A DNA stretch of 10,274 nt from a bacterium (GCA_021789095.1 JAJYJX010000086.1:1-10274), one strand, 5' to 3'; counted from the first letter of the stretch, positions 312-8,789 are shown. Translations and numbers: made by a program. Notes: generated by a model not told the origin, from the letters alone.

Positions 312-878
312 ATGGCACAGGTAAAAGGTGTTGCAATCCTCGGATTCATAAAGTTTATAAAAAAGTATATGAAGGACGCATTGCCGAAAATCATTGCTGC
401 TATGCCGCCGGAAACAAGGAAGTACATGGACGAACACATTGTTCTCACAAGATGGTATCCTTACAAGCTGTACACCGACCTGCTAAAAGCACTTGATAAC
501 ATCGCAGGTACAGGGGATCTGTCCTACTGCGTGGAACAGGGCAGGCTTTCGGCAAAGCATGACCTCTCTACGGTGTATAAGATTTTCCTGGAGTCGGTAA
601 GTATAAATACCATCATGACAAGGTCAATGAGCATGTGGAGCAGCTATTATGATACAGGAAGGGTGGATTTTAACCTTCCCTCAGACAATGAACTCATTTA
701 CACAATAAATGAATTTCCGGATATAGACATAGCCCACGTTAAAAATGTGCAGGGATGGTTTGAACAATTTATGAGTATGAGTGGGTTCAAAGACGTAAAG
801 TCCGAGATCGCAAAATGCCAGTGCTACGGAGATCCCGTAACTGAAATGAAGTTTAAATTTAAACAAAAGACGGCATAA
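312..878 (+). CDS. Uncharacterised protein, first of a tandem pair (V4R/DUF2378-like layout)
   Basis: A 188-residue soluble protein with no signal peptide or membrane segment. I do not recognise the family with certainty. Visible landmarks are W-Y-P-Y near residue 48, a GDLSYC-EQGRLSAKHDLS block at about 68-86, M-W-S-S-Y-Y-D at 108-114, Q-G-W-F-E-Q-F near 147, and a C-terminal K-C-Q-C-Y-G-D-P with Cys169 and Cys171. The order (helical N-terminus, G-x-L-x-x-C-x-x-x-G-R region, W-x-x-Y-x-x-G strand, late G-W and a Cys-rich end) recalls V4R/heme-NO-binding-like small-ligand domains and the myxobacterial DUF2378 (TIGR02265) group. That is a pattern impression only. The start is the ATG at 312 behind a strong SD (AAGGAGGGG). 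The next gene is a paralogue, about 66% identical by hand count without gaps. It heads an operon that continues into the deoxyhypusine-synthase-like genes, so a regulatory or sensory role there is possible but unproven. Confidence 0.8.
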   Translation: MAQVKGVAILGFIKFIKKYMKDALPKIIAAMPPETRKYMDEHIVLTRWYPYKLYTDLLKALDNIAGTGDLSYCVEQGRLSAKHDLSTVYKIFLESVSINTIMTRSMSMWSSYYDTGRVDFNLPSDNELIYTINEFPDIDIAHVKNVQGWFEQFMSMSGFKDVKSEIAKCQCYGDPVTEMKFKFKQKTA

Positions 879-909: not shown

Positions 910-1479
910 ATGGCACAGGTAAAAGGTGTTGCAATCCTCGGATTAATAAAGTTTATAAAAAAGGACATGAAAGATGTCCTCCCGAAGGTCATAAGCTCAC
1001 TGCCCCCTGAGACACGGAAGTACATGGATGAGCACATTCTCCTTACCGCATGGTACCCGTATAAACTTTACATAGATTTGCTGAAGACGCTGGATAAGAT
1101 TGCAGGAAATGGTGATCTGTCCTTTTGCTTGGAACAGGGCAGGCTTGCGGCAGAACACGACCTCTCAACAATATACAAGACTTTCCTGAGCTTTGTTGAG
1201 CCGAAATTGCTGGTTACAAGGGCCATGAGTGTCTGGAGCAGCTACTTTGACAGCGGAAAGGCGGAAGTTAATATAATCTCCAATGCCGAGGCTGTGGTTA
1301 CAATAAAGGATTTTCCTGATATTGACCTGTCGCATATCAAAAATATACAGGGATGGCTTGAACAATTCATGAGCATGTGTAATTTTAAAAATGTAAGATC
1401 TGAAATTACAAAATGTCAGTGTTATGGGGATCCACTGACTGATTTGCGGTTTACATTCGTTTACAAGGAGGATAAATGA
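910..1479 (+). CDS. Uncharacterised protein, second of the tandem pair
   Basis: A 189-residue paralogue of the preceding gene. The length and all landmarks are kept: W-Y-P-Y near 48, GDLSFC-EQGRLAAEHDLS at 68-86, V-W-S-S-Y-F-D at 108-114, Q-G-W-L-E-Q-F, and K-C-Q-C-Y-G-D-P. Cys73, Cys169 and Cys171 are shared by both copies, which makes them candidates for metal, cofactor or disulfide roles. Divergence is concentrated in residues 91-100 and 111-130, as expected if the two copies bind different ligands or partners. The SD is weaker (AAGG at 905-908), 31 bases after the first copy. The stop overlaps the next start as ATGA, so translation of the deoxyhypusine-synthase-like gene is probably coupled to this one. 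Function is unknown. The first 54 bases are almost identical to those of the first copy. Confidence 0.8.
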   Translation: MAQVKGVAILGLIKFIKKDMKDVLPKVISSLPPETRKYMDEHILLTAWYPYKLYIDLLKTLDKIAGNGDLSFCLEQGRLAAEHDLSTIYKTFLSFVEPKLLVTRAMSVWSSYFDSGKAEVNIISNAEAVVTIKDFPDIDLSHIKNIQGWLEQFMSMCNFKNVRSEITKCQCYGDPLTDLRFTFVYKEDK

Positions 1480-2519
1480 AGGTTCCCGGTAAAAATGAAC
1501 TATTATCGGAGAAGGTGAAATATCTCGACCTGGAAAAGATAAGAACCATAAGGGATTTGCTGATCGCCTTTCAGCATACATCCATACAGAGCAGAAACCT
1601 TGGCAAAGCACTGAGTATATACGAAAGGATGCTGTCGGACCAGGCCAGGCCAACTATATTCATGGGACTCGCAGGCCCGATGGTCCCGGGCGGCATGCGC
1701 AAGGTCATAAGGGACATGATTGAGCACGGCCTGATAGACGTGCTGGTTTCAACAGGTGCAAACCTCTACCAGGACTTTTATGTGGGCCGCGGGTTCAGCC
1801 ATTACATAGGTTCACCGAACATGGATGACCTTTTGCTGAGGAAGTACTTCATTGACAGGATATACGATACGCTTGTTGACGAGGAGAAGTTCAGGGAAAC
1901 CGATGATGCCATAGGCAGGATCGGGGACAGACTTGAAAAAAAGGAATATTCCAGCAGGGAATTTCTCGAGATACTCGGCAAGAATATATCGGACAAGAAC
2001 TCTATACTGTACACCGCAGCAAAAAAGCATGTACCGGTATTCTGCCCTGCGCTGAACGACAGCTCAATCGGTATAGGGTTAACAAAGCATTACAGCAAGG
2101 GCAAAGACAGGATCATAATAAACCCGATAAGGGATAATTACGAGCTTGCCCAGATAAAAATGCAGTCAAAGAGTGCGGGGGTTATCTACATAGGCGGAGG
2201 TACGCCCAAAAACTATATACAGCAGATGGAGGTCATATCCGAGATACTTGGTGCCGATGAGAATGGCTACAGGTACGCAATACAGATTACAACCGATACC
2301 CCGCAATGGGGAGGGTTGAGCGGCTGCACATTCGAGGAGGCCCAGTCCTGGGGCAAGATACACAAAGAGGCGGACAAAATACAGGTTACCATAGAATCAA
2401 CAGTCGGTATGCCCCTGCTTGTCGGTGCGGTCTTGCAGGGCCGCAGCTTCAGAAAGAGAAAACCGCTGAACATGAGATGGAATAACGATAAACTCGAAGG
2501 ACTTAAGAAAGGAAAGTAA
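1476..2519 (+). CDS. Deoxyhypusine-synthase-family protein (possible homospermidine-type synthase)
   Basis: A 347-residue protein of the deoxyhypusine synthase (DHS) family, NAD-dependent enzymes that transfer an aminobutyl group. Evidence: the G-L-A-G-P-M-V-P-G-G-M-R motif (residues 64-75), S-T-G-A-N-L-Y-Q-D near 92, C-P-A-L-N-D-S-S-I-G near 190, I-G-G-G-T-P-K-N (G240-N246), and S-W-G-K-I with Lys294. Lys294 matches the catalytic Lys329 of human DHS, which forms the enzyme-butylimine intermediate. At the human His288 position there is Asn246, and at Asp316 a Leu, both spermidine-contacting residues. Bacteria lack eIF5A, and bacterial members are often named homospermidine biosynthesis protein or, in some annotations, 1,9-bis(guanidino)-5-aza-nonane synthase. 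A polyamine product is therefore the likeliest role, with the exact substrate unknown. The SD is AAGGAGGA (1465-1472), and the start overlaps the previous stop by four bases. It acts in the cytoplasm, probably as an oligomer. Confidence 0.88.
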   Translation: MKVPGKNELLSEKVKYLDLEKIRTIRDLLIAFQHTSIQSRNLGKALSIYERMLSDQARPTIFMGLAGPMVPGGMRKVIRDMIEHGLIDVLVSTGANLYQDFYVGRGFSHYIGSPNMDDLLLRKYFIDRIYDTLVDEEKFRETDDAIGRIGDRLEKKEYSSREFLEILGKNISDKNSILYTAAKKHVPVFCPALNDSSIGIGLTKHYSKGKDRIIINPIRDNYELAQIKMQSKSAGVIYIGGGTPKNYIQQMEVISEILGADENGYRYAIQITTDTPQWGGLSGCTFEEAQSWGKIHKEADKIQVTIESTVGMPLLVGAVLQGRSFRKRKPLNMRWNNDKLEGLKKGK

Positions 2520-2522
2520 CAC

Positions 2523-3467
2523 ATGATGATAGAGCCGATAGATCTGAAAAGAGTAAAAACCAGTTCAATAAAAACACGCAAAAATAAGGTTAAAATAAAT
2601 GACTTTGCTCTTCCTTACAAAACAGGCTCATCCGTGAAACAGTTCTTGGCCGGTCTGCCCAAAATACTTAAGGCAGAAGATCTTTTAGCATCGGCAAATG
2701 CAATTGTGACGGCAAAAAGGAACAACAAACAATGCATACTCGCAATGGGTGACAGCGTGATAAAGGTTGGGCTTTCACCGCTTGTCATACAGCTGATGGA
2801 GAAAAAGGTCATTACCGCGATAGCCATGCAGGGCGCGGGCGTCATACACGACACGGAGATAGCCCTTATAGGCGAGACCTCGGAAGATGTAGCCGTTACG
2901 ATAAAGGACGGCAGTTTCGGTATGGCCGAAGAAACAGGTTCCATCCTCAACGATGCTATCAAGGCCGGTGCAGATAAAGGTATGGGGCTTGGCGAAGCAG
3001 CAGGGAAAGTGCTCTCGGAGATCAACGCCCCGCGCAGGGATATGAGTATAACGTACAATGCCTACAAGCTCGGTATACCGCTTACAGTACATGTTGCGTA
3101 CGGCACCGATATTATACACATGCATCCGAAAGCCGATGGTGCGGCAATAGGAAAAGCCACAGAGATAGACTTCAGAAAATTTGCAGCTATTGTATCCATG
3201 CTTGAGAACGGTGTTATTATAAACATAGGTTCGGCCGTAATTCTTCCGGAGGTATTTTTGAAGGCACTCTCAGTCGCAAGAAATATCGGATACGATGCGA
3301 AAAATTTTACAGCCATAAATATGGATATGATCCAGCATTACAGGCCCCTTGAGAATGTTGTGAAGAGACCGACCAAGACCGGTGGACAGGGATTCGCAAT
3401 CACCGGGCACCATGAGATCATGTTCCCCCTGCTTACTGCATGGGTACTTGAGTCATTAGAGTCATAG
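2523..3467 (+). CDS. Distant deoxyhypusine-synthase-like protein lacking the S-W-G-K lysine motif
   Basis: A 314-residue cytoplasmic protein without clear family assignment. Residues 72-122 resemble the NAD-binding half of DHS: M-G-D-S-V-I-K-V-G-L-S (75-85) aligns with the G-P-M-V-P-G-G-M-R region of the upstream protein. The stretch after it, A-M-Q-G-A-G-V-I-H-D-T-E, aligns with S-T-G-A-N-L-Y-Q-D, including the Asp. Further motifs are G-T-D-I-I-H-M-H-P (His199, His201) and, near the end, G-G-Q-G-F-A-I-T-G-H-H-E (287-298). I see no S-W-G-K segment, so the canonical lysine chemistry is probably absent. The start follows the upstream stop by three bases, with SD GGAAAG (2511-2516). An ATG directly after the first (2526) is an alternative. 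The next gene abuts as TAGATG. It could be a regulatory subunit for its neighbour or a separate enzyme using the same fold. The fold call is by eye and tentative. Confidence 0.75.
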   Translation: MMIEPIDLKRVKTSSIKTRKNKVKINDFALPYKTGSSVKQFLAGLPKILKAEDLLASANAIVTAKRNNKQCILAMGDSVIKVGLSPLVIQLMEKKVITAIAMQGAGVIHDTEIALIGETSEDVAVTIKDGSFGMAEETGSILNDAIKAGADKGMGLGEAAGKVLSEINAPRRDMSITYNAYKLGIPLTVHVAYGTDIIHMHPKADGAAIGKATEIDFRKFAAIVSMLENGVIINIGSAVILPEVFLKALSVARNIGYDAKNFTAINMDMIQHYRPLENVVKRPTKTGGQGFAITGHHEIMFPLLTAWVLESLES

Positions 3468-4367
3468 ATGAAGATAGGTATTACCGGCGTAACAAGCCTG
3501 CTCGGATCCCACCTTGCAAAAGCACTGGTCAACTCCGGACACGAGGTCCATGGTATCGCAAGGTCTAAAAAAGCATCCATCGAACCTATAATGCACAATA
3601 AGCTTTTCAAATTTTTCCCCGGTGACGTCACAAAGTTCGAGGACATGGAACATCCTCTCAAAGACGTCGACTACGTATTCCATCTCGCAAGTGTATCATC
3701 GGAGAGAAAAGCAATGGAGGAACCCCTGGGATGCTTTAAGGTAAATGTACTCGGTACGGTAAATGTACTTGAAATGATCAGAAGGGCAAAGCTGAAAAAG
3801 ATCGTCTTTTCATCTTCCGGTGCTGTTTACAAGAATCCGGACAACGCACAGGAAAACGATCCTGTTCCATCCAGCGGTTATTATGGTTTCACAAAATGGA
3901 ATGCGGAGAACATAATAAGGCTTTACAGGGAAAAATTCTCCGTATCATACACGATACTCAGATTATCAAGGCTGTACGGTCCATTCATGGAACGCAATCC
4001 CGTGTTTGATATGGCTTACGGCATCATACATAAAAACAGCGTGAAGCTTTACGACAGTGCTGGTTCCCTGTACGATTTTCTGTTTGTCGAGGACGCAGTA
4101 CATGCGCTTGTTACTTCATTAAATACGAACTGGGACAATGAGGTTATAAATATAAGCTCCGGCACAGGAACAAAGATTTCTGGGCTTTTCGACATTTTCA
4201 AGCTTGTTTCAGGAAAACAGGACATACCTCTTGAAATCTTGAAACACAATGACCAGATTGATATATTATCGAACAAAAAAGCTTTATCTCTTGGATGGAA
4301 GCCGTTTGTTTGTATAAAAGAAGGAGTAGAGAAAACTTATAAATGGTTTCTTGGTAACAAACGGTAG
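3468..4367 (+). CDS. NAD-dependent epimerase/dehydratase (extended SDR family)
   Basis: A 299-residue protein of normal length for nucleotide-sugar epimerases and related extended short-chain dehydrogenases. The N-terminal Rossmann motif reads T-G-V-T-S-L-L-G, with Ser in place of the middle glycine of the usual TGxxGxxG. D-V-D-Y-V-F-H-L-A follows at about 66-74, then N-V-L-G-T-V-N-V-L, then F-S-S-S-G-A-V-Y. The active site is Tyr139-x-x-x-Lys143 (YGFTK), and R-L-S-R-L-Y-G-P comes after it. This is typical of UDP-glucose 4-epimerase-like proteins, but the sugar substrate cannot be read from sequence. The start abuts the preceding stop (TAGATG), so it is probably translated by coupling with the DHS-like pair. 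That is an unusual neighbour for a sugar epimerase and may mean a different carbonyl or alcohol substrate. A 6-bp inverted repeat (4358-4363 with 4376-4381) overlaps the stop codon but has no strong T-run. Confidence 0.85.
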   Translation: MKIGITGVTSLLGSHLAKALVNSGHEVHGIARSKKASIEPIMHNKLFKFFPGDVTKFEDMEHPLKDVDYVFHLASVSSERKAMEEPLGCFKVNVLGTVNVLEMIRRAKLKKIVFSSSGAVYKNPDNAQENDPVPSSGYYGFTKWNAENIIRLYREKFSVSYTILRLSRLYGPFMERNPVFDMAYGIIHKNSVKLYDSAGSLYDFLFVEDAVHALVTSLNTNWDNEVINISSGTGTKISGLFDIFKLVSGKQDIPLEILKHNDQIDILSNKKALSLGWKPFVCIKEGVEKTYKWFLGNKR

Positions 4368-4404: not shown

Positions 4405-4417
4405 CCGCATTGTGCGG
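4405..4417 (+). other. Small hairpin immediately upstream of the thioredoxin SD site
   Basis: CCGCA (4405-4409), a three-base loop TTG, and TGCGG (4413-4417) form a perfect 5-bp stem. It ends one base before the AGGAGG SD (4419-4424) of the thioredoxin gene. It is too short and lacks the T-run for a terminator. It may stabilise the 5' end of the mRNA or affect ribosome access, or be chance. Confidence 0.3.
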
Positions 4418-4432
4418 CAGGAGGACTTAGCT

Positions 4433-4765
4433 ATGGGTGGGACAATGTATACGGTAACAGTAACAGATAACAATTTTGAACAGGAAGTATTGAAATCCGA
4501 AAAACCTGTTCTGGTAGACTTCTGGGCAGACTGGTGTATGCCCTGCAAGATGATGGAACCAACGTTTAAATCCTTGTCTGAACAGTACAACAGTAAGATC
4601 AAATTCGGGAAACTGAACACCGATGAAAATCCGCGTATACCTACACAGTATAACATAATGGGTATACCTACGGTTATCCTTTTTAAGGATGGAAAGGTCA
4701 TCGATCAAATAGTTGGTGCAGTGCCGAAATCAAACCTGGAAAAGATGTTTAGCAAGGTGTTGTAA
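4433..4765 (+). CDS. trxA: Thioredoxin with WCMPC active site
   Basis: A 110-residue single-domain thioredoxin that reduces protein disulfides in the cytoplasm. The fold markers are complete: V-L-V-D-F-W-A-D-W before the active site, Cys35-Met-Pro-Cys38, and the cis-proline loop M-G-I-P-T-V-I around residue 80, with F-K-D-G-K after it. Canonical thioredoxins have WCGPC, and Met in place of Gly is unusual and should shift redox potential or partner choice. The start chosen is the ATG at 4433, eight bases behind a strong AGGAGG. An in-frame GTG at 4412 would add seven residues, but it lies upstream of this SD and has none of its own. It is the first gene of the redox cassette. Sixty-five bases separate it from the epimerase gene, so it may have its own transcript. 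Confidence 0.92.
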   Translation: MGGTMYTVTVTDNNFEQEVLKSEKPVLVDFWADWCMPCKMMEPTFKSLSEQYNSKIKFGKLNTDENPRIPTQYNIMGIPTVILFKDGKVIDQIVGAVPKSNLEKMFSKVL

Positions 4766-4917
4766 ACAGTACCTGTGCAACCGCAGGCGAATATATAAGG
4801 ATAAAGCCAAAACCAAAAAGTCGAATATGTCAAAATCACTGCAACAGGGCTTAAAATCCTTACAAAGGCTAACTTTAAACTTCTGACTATAAAATATAAT
4901 ATGGTACGTGGCGAAAT
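4766..4917 (+). promoter_or_regulatory. Intergenic region between the two thioredoxins, with a hairpin
   Basis: This gap is 152 bases and A+T-rich. Near its start CCTGTG (4772-4777) can pair with CGCAGG (4782-4787) around a four-base loop, with one G-T pair. No T-run follows, so it is at best a weak terminator or an mRNA-processing hairpin. The far end carries the promoter described separately. I see no small gene or RNA family in it. Confidence 0.3.
4874..4900 (+). promoter_or_regulatory. Candidate sigma-70 promoter for the second thioredoxin and reductase genes
   Basis: A perfect TATAAT lies at 4895-4900, with TTTAAA at 4874-4879 as a -35 matching four of six bases at 15-base spacing. Transcription would begin near 4907, leaving a leader of only about ten bases before the ATG at 4918. 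That fits the absence of a clear SD there. In such A+T-rich sequence a perfect -10 can arise by chance, and the short spacing weakens the call. Confidence 0.45.
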
Positions 4918-5301
4918 ATGGTAAAGATTGAAACAGTAAAAGAAAAAAACATGGAAGCCGGTTCTGCTTTACTGGCGGACATCACCTGTGAAGAATTTTA
5001 CAACCTCGTGTTAAAGTCGGGCAAGCCTGTGATTGTAGACTTCTGGGCTGATTGGTGTGCATCCTGTCACACAATAAAACCTTTACTGGAGAAACTCGCA
5101 GGGAAATATAAAAACAAGATAGCCTTCTACCGTATAAATGCTGATACCTGCCCTACTATACTATCTGCATACCAGATATCGAGCATCCCAACTCTTGTCA
5201 TATACTACCAGGGCAACTCTGTTGAAAGAATTGTCGGGGCCGGTAAAGAATCAGAATATGAAAGGTTCATAGAAAATGCTCTTATCAGACTTAACAATTG
5301 A
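4918..5301 (+). CDS. Thioredoxin-like protein with WCASC active site
   Basis: A 127-residue thioredoxin-fold protein. I-V-D-F-W-A-D-W precedes Cys47-Ala-Ser-Cys50, and the cis-proline loop is S-S-I-P-T-L-V near residue 92. The active site lacks the proline of classical thioredoxins and resembles the C-terminal thioredoxin domain of DsbD (C-x-A-C), so a role as an electron relay rather than a general reductase is plausible. It has about 12 more N-terminal residues than the neighbouring thioredoxin. No signal peptide is visible, so it is probably cytoplasmic. The ATG at 4918 has only a weak GTGGCG behind it. The ATG at 4951 is the alternative start and would remove 11 residues without harming the fold. 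The thioredoxin reductase gene begins within its last 26 bases, so the two are co-transcribed and probably work together. Confidence 0.9.
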   Translation: MVKIETVKEKNMEAGSALLADITCEEFYNLVLKSGKPVIVDFWADWCASCHTIKPLLEKLAGKYKNKIAFYRINADTCPTILSAYQISSIPTLVIYYQGNSVERIVGAGKESEYERFIENALIRLNN

Positions 5302-6259
5302 TAAGGCCGAGCAGAAACCGTCCTGTGAATCATACGATTGCGTGATTATCGGGACAGGGCCTGCAGGGCTGACAGCGGGGATCTATACAGCCAGGGCAAG
5401 GCTCAAGACCCTTTTGCTGGAGGAAAAGGCGGTAGGCGGTGAGCTGGTAGTAGCCGACATCGTCGAGAATTATCCCGGCTTTCCCAAGGGCATCACGGGT
5501 GCGGATCTTACGTCTGCCATGGAAGAACAGGCCAGATCGTTCGGTGCGGAGATCTGCGAGGTAGGAGCAAAAAGCATAAATATTGAAGGAGATAACAAGA
5601 TCGTAAACACGACCGACGATCGCCAAATCAGCACAAAAGCCGTGGTTATAGCTGCCGGCACCGAAAGCCTTAAACTGAATGTAAAAGGCGAAAAACAATT
5701 TACAGGCAGGGGGGTATCGTATTGCGCCCAGTGCGACGGCGCTTTCTTCAGAGACAAGGAAATAATCGTTGTAGGAGGAGGAGATACGGCGATAGGCGAT
5801 GCCATATTCCTGACACGGTTTGCCAAAAAAATCTACGTGGTACACCGCAGGGACAAACTCAGAGCTGAGAAGATATTGCAGGAGCGTGCATTCAGCATAC
5901 CTACAATAGAATTTATTTGGGATTCCGTGGTTGCCGAGATAAAGGGAAGCAAAACAGTTGCAGCCGCAGATGTAAAGAATGTCAAAACAGGCAATGTCGC
6001 TACGAAAAAGGTTGACGGGGTTTTCATATTCATAGGAACGAAGCCAAATACCGAGTTCGTCAAGGATATTATAACCATGGACGAGAGCGGATACATAATC
6101 ACAAACGAGCATATGGAAACAAATCGGCCGGGTATATTTGCAGCTGGCGATATAAGGGTAAAGAATGTAAGACAGATTTCAACCGCAGTGGGCGATGGTG
6201 CCATTGCAGGCTACGCCGTACAGCATTACATTGAAAAATTGGAAACGATAAAGAAATAA
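5276..6259 (+). CDS. trxB: Thioredoxin reductase (NADPH)
   Basis: A 327-residue low-molecular-weight thioredoxin reductase of normal length that transfers electrons from NADPH through FAD to thioredoxin. Seen in order: FAD-binding G-T-G-P-A-G (26-31); E-N-Y-P-G-F-P; the redox pair Cys150-Ala-Gln-Cys153-Asp-Gly, where most family members have CATC; NADPH-binding G-G-G-D-T-A (167-172) with H-R-R-D-K-L-R-A from His190, the basic set that selects NADPH; and F-A-A-G-D near the C-terminus, which contacts FAD. The start overlaps the thioredoxin-like gene by 26 bases, with AAAGG at 5261-5265. No later in-frame ATG exists before the FAD motif, which supports this start, although the first 20 residues precede the conserved core. 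It probably serves the flanking thioredoxins and the downstream two-domain disulfide oxidoreductase. Confidence 0.95.
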   Translation: MLLSDLTIDKAEQKPSCESYDCVIIGTGPAGLTAGIYTARARLKTLLLEEKAVGGELVVADIVENYPGFPKGITGADLTSAMEEQARSFGAEICEVGAKSINIEGDNKIVNTTDDRQISTKAVVIAAGTESLKLNVKGEKQFTGRGVSYCAQCDGAFFRDKEIIVVGGGDTAIGDAIFLTRFAKKIYVVHRRDKLRAEKILQERAFSIPTIEFIWDSVVAEIKGSKTVAAADVKNVKTGNVATKKVDGVFIFIGTKPNTEFVKDIITMDESGYIITNEHMETNRPGIFAAGDIRVKNVRQISTAVGDGAIAGYAVQHYIEKLETIKK

Positions 6260-6271
6260 AACGGAGGCAAT

Positions 6272-6922
6272 ATGAGTTTACTGCAAGAGAAAGACAAAGA
6301 ATATCTTAAAAATGAATTCTCGAAATTAAAAAACGACGTAAAATTGGTTCTTTTCACCCAGGAAAAAGATTGCACCTACTGTAATGATGAAAAGATGCTT
6401 ATAGAAGAATTAGGTTCTCTATCCGAAAAAATAAAGGTCGAGTATTACGATTACGCAGTGCAGAATGACAAGAAAGAACAATACAGGGTAGACAAGTATC
6501 CTGCACTTATCATAGAAGGCGCGAAGGATTACGGCATAAGGTATTACGGCATACCGGCGGGTTATGAGTTCGCATCGGTGATAGAGGACATTATGGATGT
6601 ATCGGCGGGCAATACCAATCTGACCGAACAATCGAAAAAGAAGTTAAAATCCATCGACAAACCGGTAAGGATACAGGTTTTTGTAACTCCGAGCTGCCCT
6701 TATTGTCCGAGGGCCGTAAGAACCGCACATAAAATAGCAATAGAAAGCGACCTTGTGACTGCGGACATGGTAGAAGCAACAGAGTTTCCCGAGATCAGCA
6801 CGAGGTACAGCGTTCAGGCCGTGCCAAAAACAATCGTTAATGATGATACTGAATTCGTAGGTGCTGTGCCGGAGGATCAATTCGTAGATGAAGTGCTCTC
6901 CGCACTTAAACCGCATGAATAA
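6272..6922 (+). CDS. Protein disulfide oxidoreductase with two thioredoxin folds (glutaredoxin-like, TIGR02187 type)
   Basis: A 216-residue protein made of two thioredoxin folds. The first has Cys34-Thr-Tyr-Cys37 and a cis-proline in V-D-K-Y-P-A. The second has Cys142-Pro-Tyr-Cys145, the glutaredoxin-type site, and a cis-proline in Q-A-V-P-K-T. Length and two-site layout match the archaeal and thermophile PDO family (glutaredoxin-like domain protein), which can oxidise, reduce or isomerise protein disulfides and in several organisms takes electrons from thioredoxin reductase. Both active sites are intact. In this family the C-terminal CPYC site is usually the more reactive one. The ATG lies five bases after GGAGG (6263-6267) and twelve bases after trxB, so trxB-PDO looks like one transcriptional unit. 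Confidence 0.93.
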   Translation: MSLLQEKDKEYLKNEFSKLKNDVKLVLFTQEKDCTYCNDEKMLIEELGSLSEKIKVEYYDYAVQNDKKEQYRVDKYPALIIEGAKDYGIRYYGIPAGYEFASVIEDIMDVSAGNTNLTEQSKKKLKSIDKPVRIQVFVTPSCPYCPRAVRTAHKIAIESDLVTADMVEATEFPEISTRYSVQAVPKTIVNDDTEFVGAVPEDQFVDEVLSALKPHE

Positions 6923-7003
6923 CGCCGGCGTACCTGCCATACACTTGAAAATTTTTATGTCATTCCCTGAAACATATTTTAACAGGTAAAGGAGAACCGG
7001 CTG

Positions 7004-8356
7004 ATGTCTGAGAATGTTGTTATCGTAGGCGGTGTTGCAGCAGGGATGAGTGCAGCAAGCCAGGCGAAAAGAAGAAAACCTTCGTTAAACGTTATTGCGC
7101 TGGAAAAAACTGAATTTGTCTCTTACGGCTCATGCGGCCTGCCGTACTACATTATGGACATAATAAAGAAGCATACGGATCTCATCGCCGTTACGAAGGA
7201 AAAATTCAAGACCGAAAGAAACATTGATGTCCAAACAAGAATAGAAGCCGTCAGCATAGATCCGAAAGAGGGCAAAATTCATGCAATCGATCACAACGAG
7301 AAAAAAGATGTTGTCTTCCCGTATGATTATCTTGCCATTACAACAGGTGCTTCTTCAATAAAACCTGCCATACCGGGGATAGAACATCCCGGCATATTCC
7401 TGCTCAGAACCCTTGATGACGGAATTGCCGTTAAAGGTTACATAAAATCATTCCCTGTAAAGAGAACCGCCATTATAGGAGCGGGCTATATCGGTATGGA
7501 AATGGCAGAAGTATTCAAGGGGCTTGGATTCGAAGTCGTTGTAATCGAGAAAATGCCGAACATACTCGGCACCATGGATGAGGAAATTACGTCCGTCGTG
7601 GAAAAAACCCTTGAAAGCAATGGTGTAAGGATCCTCAAGTCAACAGAGGTCAAATCATTTGATAGGAAAGACAGCGGCATGATAAAGATAGAAACAAGCA
7701 ACGGCGGTTTTGACGTTGATATGGTTATGTTCGGGACGGGTGTTAAGCCGAATTCCATGATTGCAAAAGCAGCCGGTGCCCTGACAGGTGCCCATGATGC
7801 AATACTTGTCAACGAGAAGATGGAAACCAACATCCCTCATGTATATTCGGCAGGTGATTGTGCCACTGCAAAGCATATAGTTCTCAAAAAGGATCTGTAC
7901 ATACCAATGGGTACAACCGCCAATAAACAGGGCAGGATTGCAGGAGCAAACATAGCAGGCGGTGATGAAACGTTTAAGGGCGTCGCAGGTACTGCTGTTG
8001 TAAAGGTATTTGATCTGGAAGTTGCCAGGACCGGCTTAACTGAAAAAGAGGCCAGGGATTATGGGTTTAATGTGGTTTCAAGCGTCATTACATCAAGGAC
8101 GAGGGCACATTACTACCCCGGCAGCAAGCCTATAACGATAAAAGTTGTAATAGATAAAAAAAAGGGTAAACTCATGGGAGCGCAGATGGTAGGCGGGGAA
8201 GGTGTGGCAAAGAGAATAGATATTGTTGTTGCAGGATTGTATGAAGGTATGACCGTTGGTGAACTGTCCAGACTCGACTTGAGCTATGCACCGCAATTCG
8301 CTCCTGTATGGGATCCTTTGTTAGTAGCTGCAAACGACGCTTTAAAAAAGGTGTAG
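7004..8356 (+). CDS. CoA-disulfide / CoA-persulfide reductase-like flavoprotein
   Basis: A 450-residue FAD- and NAD(P)H-dependent disulfide oxidoreductase of the single-cysteine group (CoA-disulfide reductase, NADH-dependent persulfide reductase, NADH oxidase). It shows G-G-V-A-A-G-M-S near the N-terminus for FAD and Y-G-S-Cys44-G-L-P-Y-Y, the redox cysteine. G-A-G-Y-I-G-M-E at about 159-166 binds the nicotinamide nucleotide, and S-A-G-D-C is the second FAD motif. The C-terminus D-L-S-Y-A-P-Q-F-A-P-V-W-D-P-L is the CoA-disulfide reductase signature. Tyr370 and Tyr428 are 58 residues apart, matching Tyr361 and Tyr419 of the Staphylococcus aureus enzyme that assist catalysis across the dimer. 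Those tyrosines favour CoA-disulfide or persulfide reduction over plain NADH oxidase activity. There is no rhodanese domain fused at the C-terminus. The SD AAAGGAGA (6988-6995) is strong. The gene follows the PDO after 81 bases and ends one base before the OsmC gene. Confidence 0.9.
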   Translation: MSENVVIVGGVAAGMSAASQAKRRKPSLNVIALEKTEFVSYGSCGLPYYIMDIIKKHTDLIAVTKEKFKTERNIDVQTRIEAVSIDPKEGKIHAIDHNEKKDVVFPYDYLAITTGASSIKPAIPGIEHPGIFLLRTLDDGIAVKGYIKSFPVKRTAIIGAGYIGMEMAEVFKGLGFEVVVIEKMPNILGTMDEEITSVVEKTLESNGVRILKSTEVKSFDRKDSGMIKIETSNGGFDVDMVMFGTGVKPNSMIAKAAGALTGAHDAILVNEKMETNIPHVYSAGDCATAKHIVLKKDLYIPMGTTANKQGRIAGANIAGGDETFKGVAGTAVVKVFDLEVARTGLTEKEARDYGFNVVSSVITSRTRAHYYPGSKPITIKVVIDKKKGKLMGAQMVGGEGVAKRIDIVVAGLYEGMTVGELSRLDLSYAPQFAPVWDPLLVAANDALKKV

Positions 8357-8357
8357 T

Positions 8358-8789
8358 ATGCCGAAAACAGAAATTAAATGGCAGAATGAAATGAGGTTCG
8401 AAGGTATACCCGAATCAGGACATGCTGTTATTATGGACGCAGAAAAGGTCCACGGTGGGGCTGATACCGGTGCAAGGCCTATGGAATTGCTGCTTGTAGG
8501 CTTGGGCGGATGCACGGGCATGGATGTTGTGTCCATCCTGAAAAAGATGCGAAAACACATAAAGAGCTTCAGGATGAATATCAATGCTGAAAGGGCCAAG
8601 GAACATCCGAAGGTTTATACAAACATATCACTTGAATACATCGTTGAGGGGGATATGGAAGAGAAAGATGTTATGAAAGCCATAGAACTCTCCCGGCAGA
8701 AATTCTGTTCGGTTTCTGCCATGCTCGGGAAAACGGCAAAAATATCTTATACCTGGAAACTGTTAAGGACTGGGGACAGTGTTTCTTGA
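8358..8789 (+). CDS. OsmC-family protein (YhfA-like peroxide/thiol protein)
   Basis: A 143-residue OsmC/Ohr-fold protein. These form dimers in which a pair of cysteines reduces organic hydroperoxides. The first cysteine is in G-G-C-T-G-M-D-V (Cys52) and the second in K-F-C-S-V-S-A-M-L (Cys117), both present and in the expected places. The G-G-C-T-G-M-D-V-V-x-I-L-x-K-M-R run is typical of the YhfA-like subgroup, whose physiological substrate is less certain than that of Ohr. The ATG follows the flavoprotein stop by one base, so the two are surely co-translated and probably act on related thiols or peroxides. Some related proteins are linked to sulfane-sulfur metabolism, and the neighbour makes that possible here. 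Confidence 0.92.
   Translation: MPKTEIKWQNEMRFEGIPESGHAVIMDAEKVHGGADTGARPMELLLVGLGGCTGMDVVSILKKMRKHIKSFRMNINAERAKEHPKVYTNISLEYIVEGDMEEKDVMKAIELSRQKFCSVSAMLGKTAKISYTWKLLRTGDSVS

Follow-up and report, generated by a model that had tools for sequence, protein, structure and literature searches.

The bacterial DNA analysed here (GCA_021789095.1 JAJYJX010000086.1:1-10274), a stretch of 10,274 nucleotides referred to below as the window, carries two adjacent plus-strand genes whose products we call P1 and P2. P1 (positions 1476-2519) is a putative NAD-dependent polyamine synthase of 347 amino acids, and P2 (2523-3467) is a 314-amino-acid member of the GSU2086 family; only three bases (CAC, 2520-2522) separate the two genes. 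A preliminary description of the window had located both genes and their spacing correctly, and had proposed that P1 and P2 form a complex of a catalytic and an inactive deoxyhypusine synthase (DHS)-like subunit or, alternatively, that P2 is an undescribed enzyme on the DHS fold. We examined the sequence, predicted fold, genomic distribution, and gene context of the two proteins.

P1 matched the Pfam family PF01916 with 319 bits (E 3.6e-95), above the gathering threshold of 27 bits. The lysine of its SWGKI motif is residue 294 (codon 2355-2357, plus strand), as had been described, and is invariant in an alignment of 14 DHS sequences. By these matches P1 belongs to the DHS family proper and keeps the catalytic lysine. 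No NCBIfam equivalog was matched over its cut-off; the best NCBIfam model was PRK00805 (373 bits, cut-off 434), and the caldomycin synthase model NF002699 gave 314.8 bits against a curated cut-off of 500. These scores assign no exact substrate pair to P1. Relatives of P1 in other GSU2086-bearing bacteria are 39-51% identical to it. P1-type genes are found directly beside agmatinase and pyruvoyl arginine decarboxylase (PvlArgDC) genes at loci L108 and L113, beside PvlArgDC alone at L112, and beside agmatinase and SpeD at L109, the decarboxylases of L112 and L113 being identified by sequence likeness to the tested L108 protein. In the window genome, PvlArgDC and agmatinase are encoded side by side on a separate contig (C195).

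In bacteria, EF-P is the counterpart used instead of IF5A. P1 would use NAD and Lys294 to carry a four-carbon amine between small amines, and its product would be homospermidine or its diamidino precursor rather than a modification of eIF5A. In its DHS fold and kept lysine, P1 resembles Anabaena-type homospermidine synthase and the caldomycin synthase CdmS, a 1,9-bis(guanidino)-5-aza-nonane synthase (NF002699; PMC10981699), and the likeness extends to the agmatinase and arginine decarboxylase genes beside those of its relatives; P1 differs from CdmS in scoring well below the cut-off of the CdmS model. This context fits homospermidine synthesis or the coupling of agmatine known in Thermus (PMC10981699), and by analogy P1 itself may be a synthase of either type.

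P2 matched the NCBIfam model NF052581, "GSU2086 family protein", with 423.9 bits over residues 5-306 (curated cut-off 250), and thereby belongs to the same family as GSU2086 of Geobacter sulfurreducens, which is encoded in an hldE-gmhA operon. The family is already named and modelled in NCBIfam, yet uncharacterised. Against PF01916, P2 reached 16.9 bits over residues 50-115 only, below the cut-off of 27, and a single-sequence BLASTP comparison of P1 with P2 gave nothing convincing (E 0.018 over 33 amino acids). With either P2 alone or profile A1 as the query, the sequences of solved structures yielded no significant match; the relation of P2 to DHS is visible only by structure and profile-profile comparison. 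An AlphaFold model of P2 made from 52 relatives (pLDDT 90.7, pTM 0.87) found Pyrococcus DHS as its best Foldseek matches (E 1.5e-9), and VIA-align gave Z 22.0 with DHS 7cmc (275 residues, root-mean-square deviation 3.7) and Z 22.3 with AgrE 6lrf (220 residues, 2.8). The profile-profile comparison of P2 with DHS gave 91.5% and an E value of 8.5e-7. According to the model, P2 has the DHS fold over nearly its whole chain but is without the catalytic lysine. The preliminary description had assigned the shared half of the fold to residues 75-122 and had named an unrelated fold as the outcome that would speak against it; the predicted structure has the DHS fold, and the shared part is nearly the whole protein rather than that half.

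P2 carries His199-Met-His201 and, at residues 287-298, GGQGFAITGHHE, and it has no SWGK motif, all of which agrees with the earlier description. Across 52 family members more than 60 residues are invariant, many of them His, Asp, and Glu, including H109, D110, E112, E121, E136, E137, H190, D196, H199, and E298. His201 and Pro202, which complete the HMHP stretch at residues 199-202 (3117-3128, plus strand), are nearly invariant. The invariant lysines are K81 and K247, and there is none in the C-terminal region of these 52 sequences. The sequence HDTE at residues 109-112 (2847-2858, plus strand) represents an invariant HDxE motif that is common to the C-terminal domain of ArgZ but not to DHS; in the profile alignment, ArgZ chain 6juy reads HDIE at this position. 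P2 thus resembles the C-terminal ornithine cyclodeaminase domain of ArgZ/AgrE and the LOR/SDH family TIGR00300 in fold and in HDxE, but it lacks the N-terminal dihydrolase domain, is found in a sugar and not an amino-acid gene context, and has no TIGR00300 match: it was not listed by that model at E<=1, and diverged GSU2086 members reach 23 bits against a cut-off of 411. Conservation and alignments together suggest that P2 has an active site.

The shared fold, the missing lysine, and the three-base spacing would suit a catalytically dead P2 that activates P1 within a joint heterotetramer of the trypanosomatid kind. Furthermore, the two genes adjoin in both genera of the window phylum in which DHS was found, DHS lying directly upstream of P2 in each genome. 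A complex of the DHSc/DHSp type would call for both genes in one genome, whereas in the window phylum GSU2086 was present in nine of nine genomes and DHS in two. One of the seven DHS-less genomes is 99% complete. In the DHS-less genomes the gene order is a 188-amino-acid protein, GSU2086, and a short-chain dehydrogenase/reductase (SDR), with no gene between, and DHS must therefore have been inserted into, or lost from, that order. DHS was nearby at none of 80 loci from a genome-wide search. A whole-genome search of 50 further GSU2086 genomes, in which matches of about 20 bits were left out as being GSU2086 itself, detected DHS in 22, none of them with the two genes adjacent, and no DHS in 28; where both genes of the 22 genomes were on one contig, they were more than 100 kb apart. 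P2 thus occurs independently of DHS.

Sequence distance and phylogeny point in the same direction. The second trypanosomatid subunit is a recognisable DHS paralogue, directly detectable as DHS (the Trypanosoma brucei regulatory subunit 6dft_B matches P1 at 7.6e-15), but P2 is not, and it has a strongly conserved residue set of its own. P2 appears far too diverged from DHS for a recent inactive paralogue like DHSp. In a tree of P2 proteins, the nearest relative of the window P2 is a 92% identical orthologue from a genome without detected DHS, the protein of the other DHS-bearing genus is farther away, and no clade unites the two DHS-bearing genera; this grouping gives no hint that P2 has adapted to DHS. 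Co-occurrence, sequence distance, and the tree led us to reject the heterotetramer, and we give a dead subunit that activates P1 a probability close to negligible. P1 and P2 are almost certainly not halves of one enzyme but probably operon neighbours with separate jobs, and their adjacency is an ordinary neighbour relation confined to two genera. Genomes in which the two genes never co-occur had been named beforehand as evidence against the complex, and our result, with adjacency in two genomes only, comes close to that. The alternative, an undescribed enzyme on the DHS fold, is the better reading, with the amendment that the family already has a name.

The genes around GSU2086 connect the family with sugars. 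Among 84 loci with enough upstream sequence, gmhA, encoding phosphoheptose isomerase, lies immediately upstream of GSU2086 at 57, and a sugar-type SDR gene lies immediately downstream at 15 (window phylum, Omnitrophota, and a Planctomycetales bin); Nitrospira contributes many of these loci, and a few from the window phylum probably stem from genomes sampled twice, which makes the counts interdependent, but the pattern recurs in several phyla. In the window, the SDR is of the NAD-dependent epimerase/dehydratase type (3468-4367, plus strand; PF01370, E 1.5e-45), and its start abuts the stop of P2. Diverged GSU2086 genes are also present on plasmids. In Solidesulfovibrio one lies between genes for an HldE-like kinase/adenylyltransferase and a SIS isomerase, and in a Chloroflexota plasmid the order is HAD, GSU2086, HldA-like kinase, and SIS, and the neighbouring genes encode a sugar ABC transporter and a Gfo/Idh/MocA oxidoreductase. 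The sugar-uptake setting of the latter may point to the GSU2086 substrate. These plasmid-borne clusters are at 3324-6405 in L096 and 5032-8462 in L097. In Geobacter, a transposon sequencing (Tn-seq) study gives depletion values during electrode growth of -3.1, -3.2, and -3.7 for hldE, GSU2086, and gmhA, respectively (PMC5585712). That paper was the only one found in a literature search on GSU2086, and a search on DHS with phosphoheptose isomerase found none.

On this evidence, we consider it somewhat probable that the two proteins have separate roles, P1 as a polyamine synthase and P2, which within the GSU2086 family is of type A (see below), as a sugar-linked hydride-transfer enzyme and not as a DHS subunit. 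P2 keeps the dinucleotide-binding fold of DHS and the ArgZ C-terminal domain but not the Schiff-base lysine. It would transfer hydride by means of a bound nicotinamide cofactor, for example to epimerise, oxidise or reduce its substrate, which would be a sugar phosphate or nucleotide sugar handled together with the downstream SDR; we infer this substrate class, cofactor, and chemistry. Several points weigh against such a role. In the window phylum gmhA is located elsewhere in the genome, and therefore only the SDR link applies to the window P2. In two genera DHS and GSU2086 adjoin with tight spacing, which suggests co-transcription. The sugar linkage rests on gene neighbourhood and on one Tn-seq data set, in which polar operon effects are possible, and NAD binding by P2 is suggested by its predicted fold.

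The strict adjacency to gmhA or SDR genes and the loss of the Schiff-base lysine could also be read as signs that GSU2086 proteins are non-catalytic partners, scaffolds or regulators, of GmhA or the SDR. However, the many invariant His, Asp, and Glu residues suggest an active site, and the partner changes by clade from gmhA to SDR, which is harder to explain for a dedicated scaffold; we regard this explanation as unlikely. The substrate of P2 might instead be an amine or amino acid, as it would be for a cyclodeaminase or a polyamine step, its adjacency to P1 then reflecting a shared pathway, as both solved relatives on the fold (DHS and the ornithine cyclodeaminase of ArgZ/AgrE) act on amines. 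Yet the neighbours of GSU2086 in several phyla are sugar genes, true DHS genes at other loci accompany polyamine genes, and PvlArgDC and agmatinase, present in eight of the nine phylum genomes, are located away from GSU2086, so that we hold an amine substrate to be distinctly unlikely.

The value of the locus lies in the P2 family, which is widespread, very highly conserved, and uncharacterised, while the pair as such is ordinary. Its fold has so far been known for DHS and ornithine cyclodeaminase, its links to heptose and other sugar genes are consistent in several phyla, and in one host, Geobacter, mutants are strongly impaired in electrode growth according to the Tn-seq report.

The 52 sequences separate into two types, with positions 77 and 103 distinguishing them without exception. 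Type A members have the motifs GD[SA]xIK and QGA, and type B members have GAHxIK (GGH in one) and NGA. P2 is of type A: its residues 76-85, GDSVIKVGLS (2748-2777, plus strand), form the loop at the predicted cofactor side that reads GAHxIKVGL in type B, and Asp77, with Gln103, is diagnostic of the subfamily. Type A, which forms one clade with support 100/100, comprises members from the window phylum, Omnitrophota, and a Planctomycetales bin, and its motifs recur at an Elusimicrobiota locus. Wherever downstream sequence is visible, type A is linked to an SDR, whereas type B, to which most sampled members of NF052581 belong, is mostly gmhA-linked. By analogy of its gmhA-linked context rather than by its sequence, we infer that the Geobacter GSU2086 is of type B.

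The two types also differ in their association with genes for the nickel-pincer nucleotide (NPN), into which nickel is inserted with the help of the required larC product. Searches for larC were positive for 27 of the 34 type B genomes (completeness unstated), and none of the six named type A genomes had it at full length; Fisher p ranged from 2e-6 to 4e-4 depending on phylum counting, and since the A/B split is one deep branch, the correlation comprises few independent events. The NCBIfam name of TIGR00300, whose members share the fold of P2, is NPN-dependent ornithine cyclodeaminase; a literature search on NPN with ornithine cyclodeaminase found nothing, and the label was not traced to a paper. 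The LarB of the window genome matches the purE model, i.e. LarB is PurE-like, and LarE is a PP-loop protein. The Geobacter electrode-growth list that includes GSU2086 also contains GSU0140 (phosphoribosylaminoimidazole carboxylase-like) with the adjacent gene GSU0141 (hypothetical), the nickel importer nikMN, and GSU0536 of the adenosine nucleotide alpha-hydrolase superfamily (PMC5585712, Table 1). Because of the likeness of LarB to PurE and of LarE to PP-loop proteins, GSU0140 and GSU0536 are, by annotation in that table, plausibly LarB and LarE. The listing of LarB-like and LarE-like proteins and a nickel importer together with hldE-GSU2086-gmhA is not remarked on in the accessible text of that report.

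In roughly 15% of genomes larB, larC, and larE are present without larA, and non-LarA acceptors of NPN are sought (PMC11796402). The occurrence of larC in the type B genomes, the Tn-seq phenotype that the Geobacter data give to both GSU2086 and lar-like genes, and the nickel importer make type B GSU2086 a candidate for an NPN enzyme other than LarA, with a sugar as its substrate. We tentatively propose, as a possibility somewhat short of even, that GSU2086 proteins make up a class of DHS-fold sugar enzymes not assigned before, of which the main branch, type B (for example in Nitrospira, Deltaproteobacteria, and probably Geobacter), uses NPN, and type A, without the GAH histidine, has no need of it. 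If type B depends on NPN, it would answer part of the open question of larBCE genomes without larA, and types A and B would be a natural experiment on an enzyme working with and without nickel.

A dependence of P2 itself on NPN, in the manner of the TIGR00300 ornithine cyclodeaminases whose fold it shares, might be argued from the fold common to ArgZ/AgrE and TIGR00300 relatives, the present NCBIfam name, the HDxE motif shared with ArgZ, and the presence of larB in the window genome. Against this, larC is represented in the window phylum only by a frame of 243 amino acids in the window genome, which covers LarC1 alone, and by a partial match in genome G007, and the histidine of the type B GAH motif is missing from type A. 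In particular, the NPN idea fails for type A because the 99% complete genome G002 keeps a type A GSU2086 gene with no larC and no larB over the cut-off. NPN dependence of the window protein was therefore rejected on larC and larB in the phylum and appears very improbable; as a sugar enzyme, P2 probably works without nickel. larB is intact in the window genome and in genome G006, and NPN synthesis genes look eroded in the window phylum. The lar genes are located in genome G000 on contig C145 (1486-2214 in L098 and 1498-2235 in L107, both minus strand) and at 1234-1815 in L099 (plus strand).

The window genes form a tight string of two genes for 188-189-amino-acid proteins, P1, P2, the SDR, and then redox genes. 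The gene at 910-1479 (plus strand), which holds its place in a conserved gene order and whose stop overlaps the P1 start as ATGA, encodes a 188-189-amino-acid protein of unassigned family, with no Pfam or NCBIfam match over cut-off. A second, tandem copy at 312-878 (plus strand) encodes a 188-amino-acid protein that is 66% identical to it. This protein has a conserved C-x-C-Y-x-D-P motif near its C-terminus. It is encoded upstream of GSU2086 throughout the window phylum, directly so in members without DHS, and as a single copy in the relatives seen. Downstream of the SDR, positions 4412-8789 encode two thioredoxins, a thioredoxin-reductase-like protein, a tandem glutaredoxin-fold protein, a CoA-disulfide-reductase-like protein, and OsmC, and this redox cluster is kept downstream of GSU2086-SDR in the window phylum (L103-L105). 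A gene for an outer-membrane-like protein follows OsmC.

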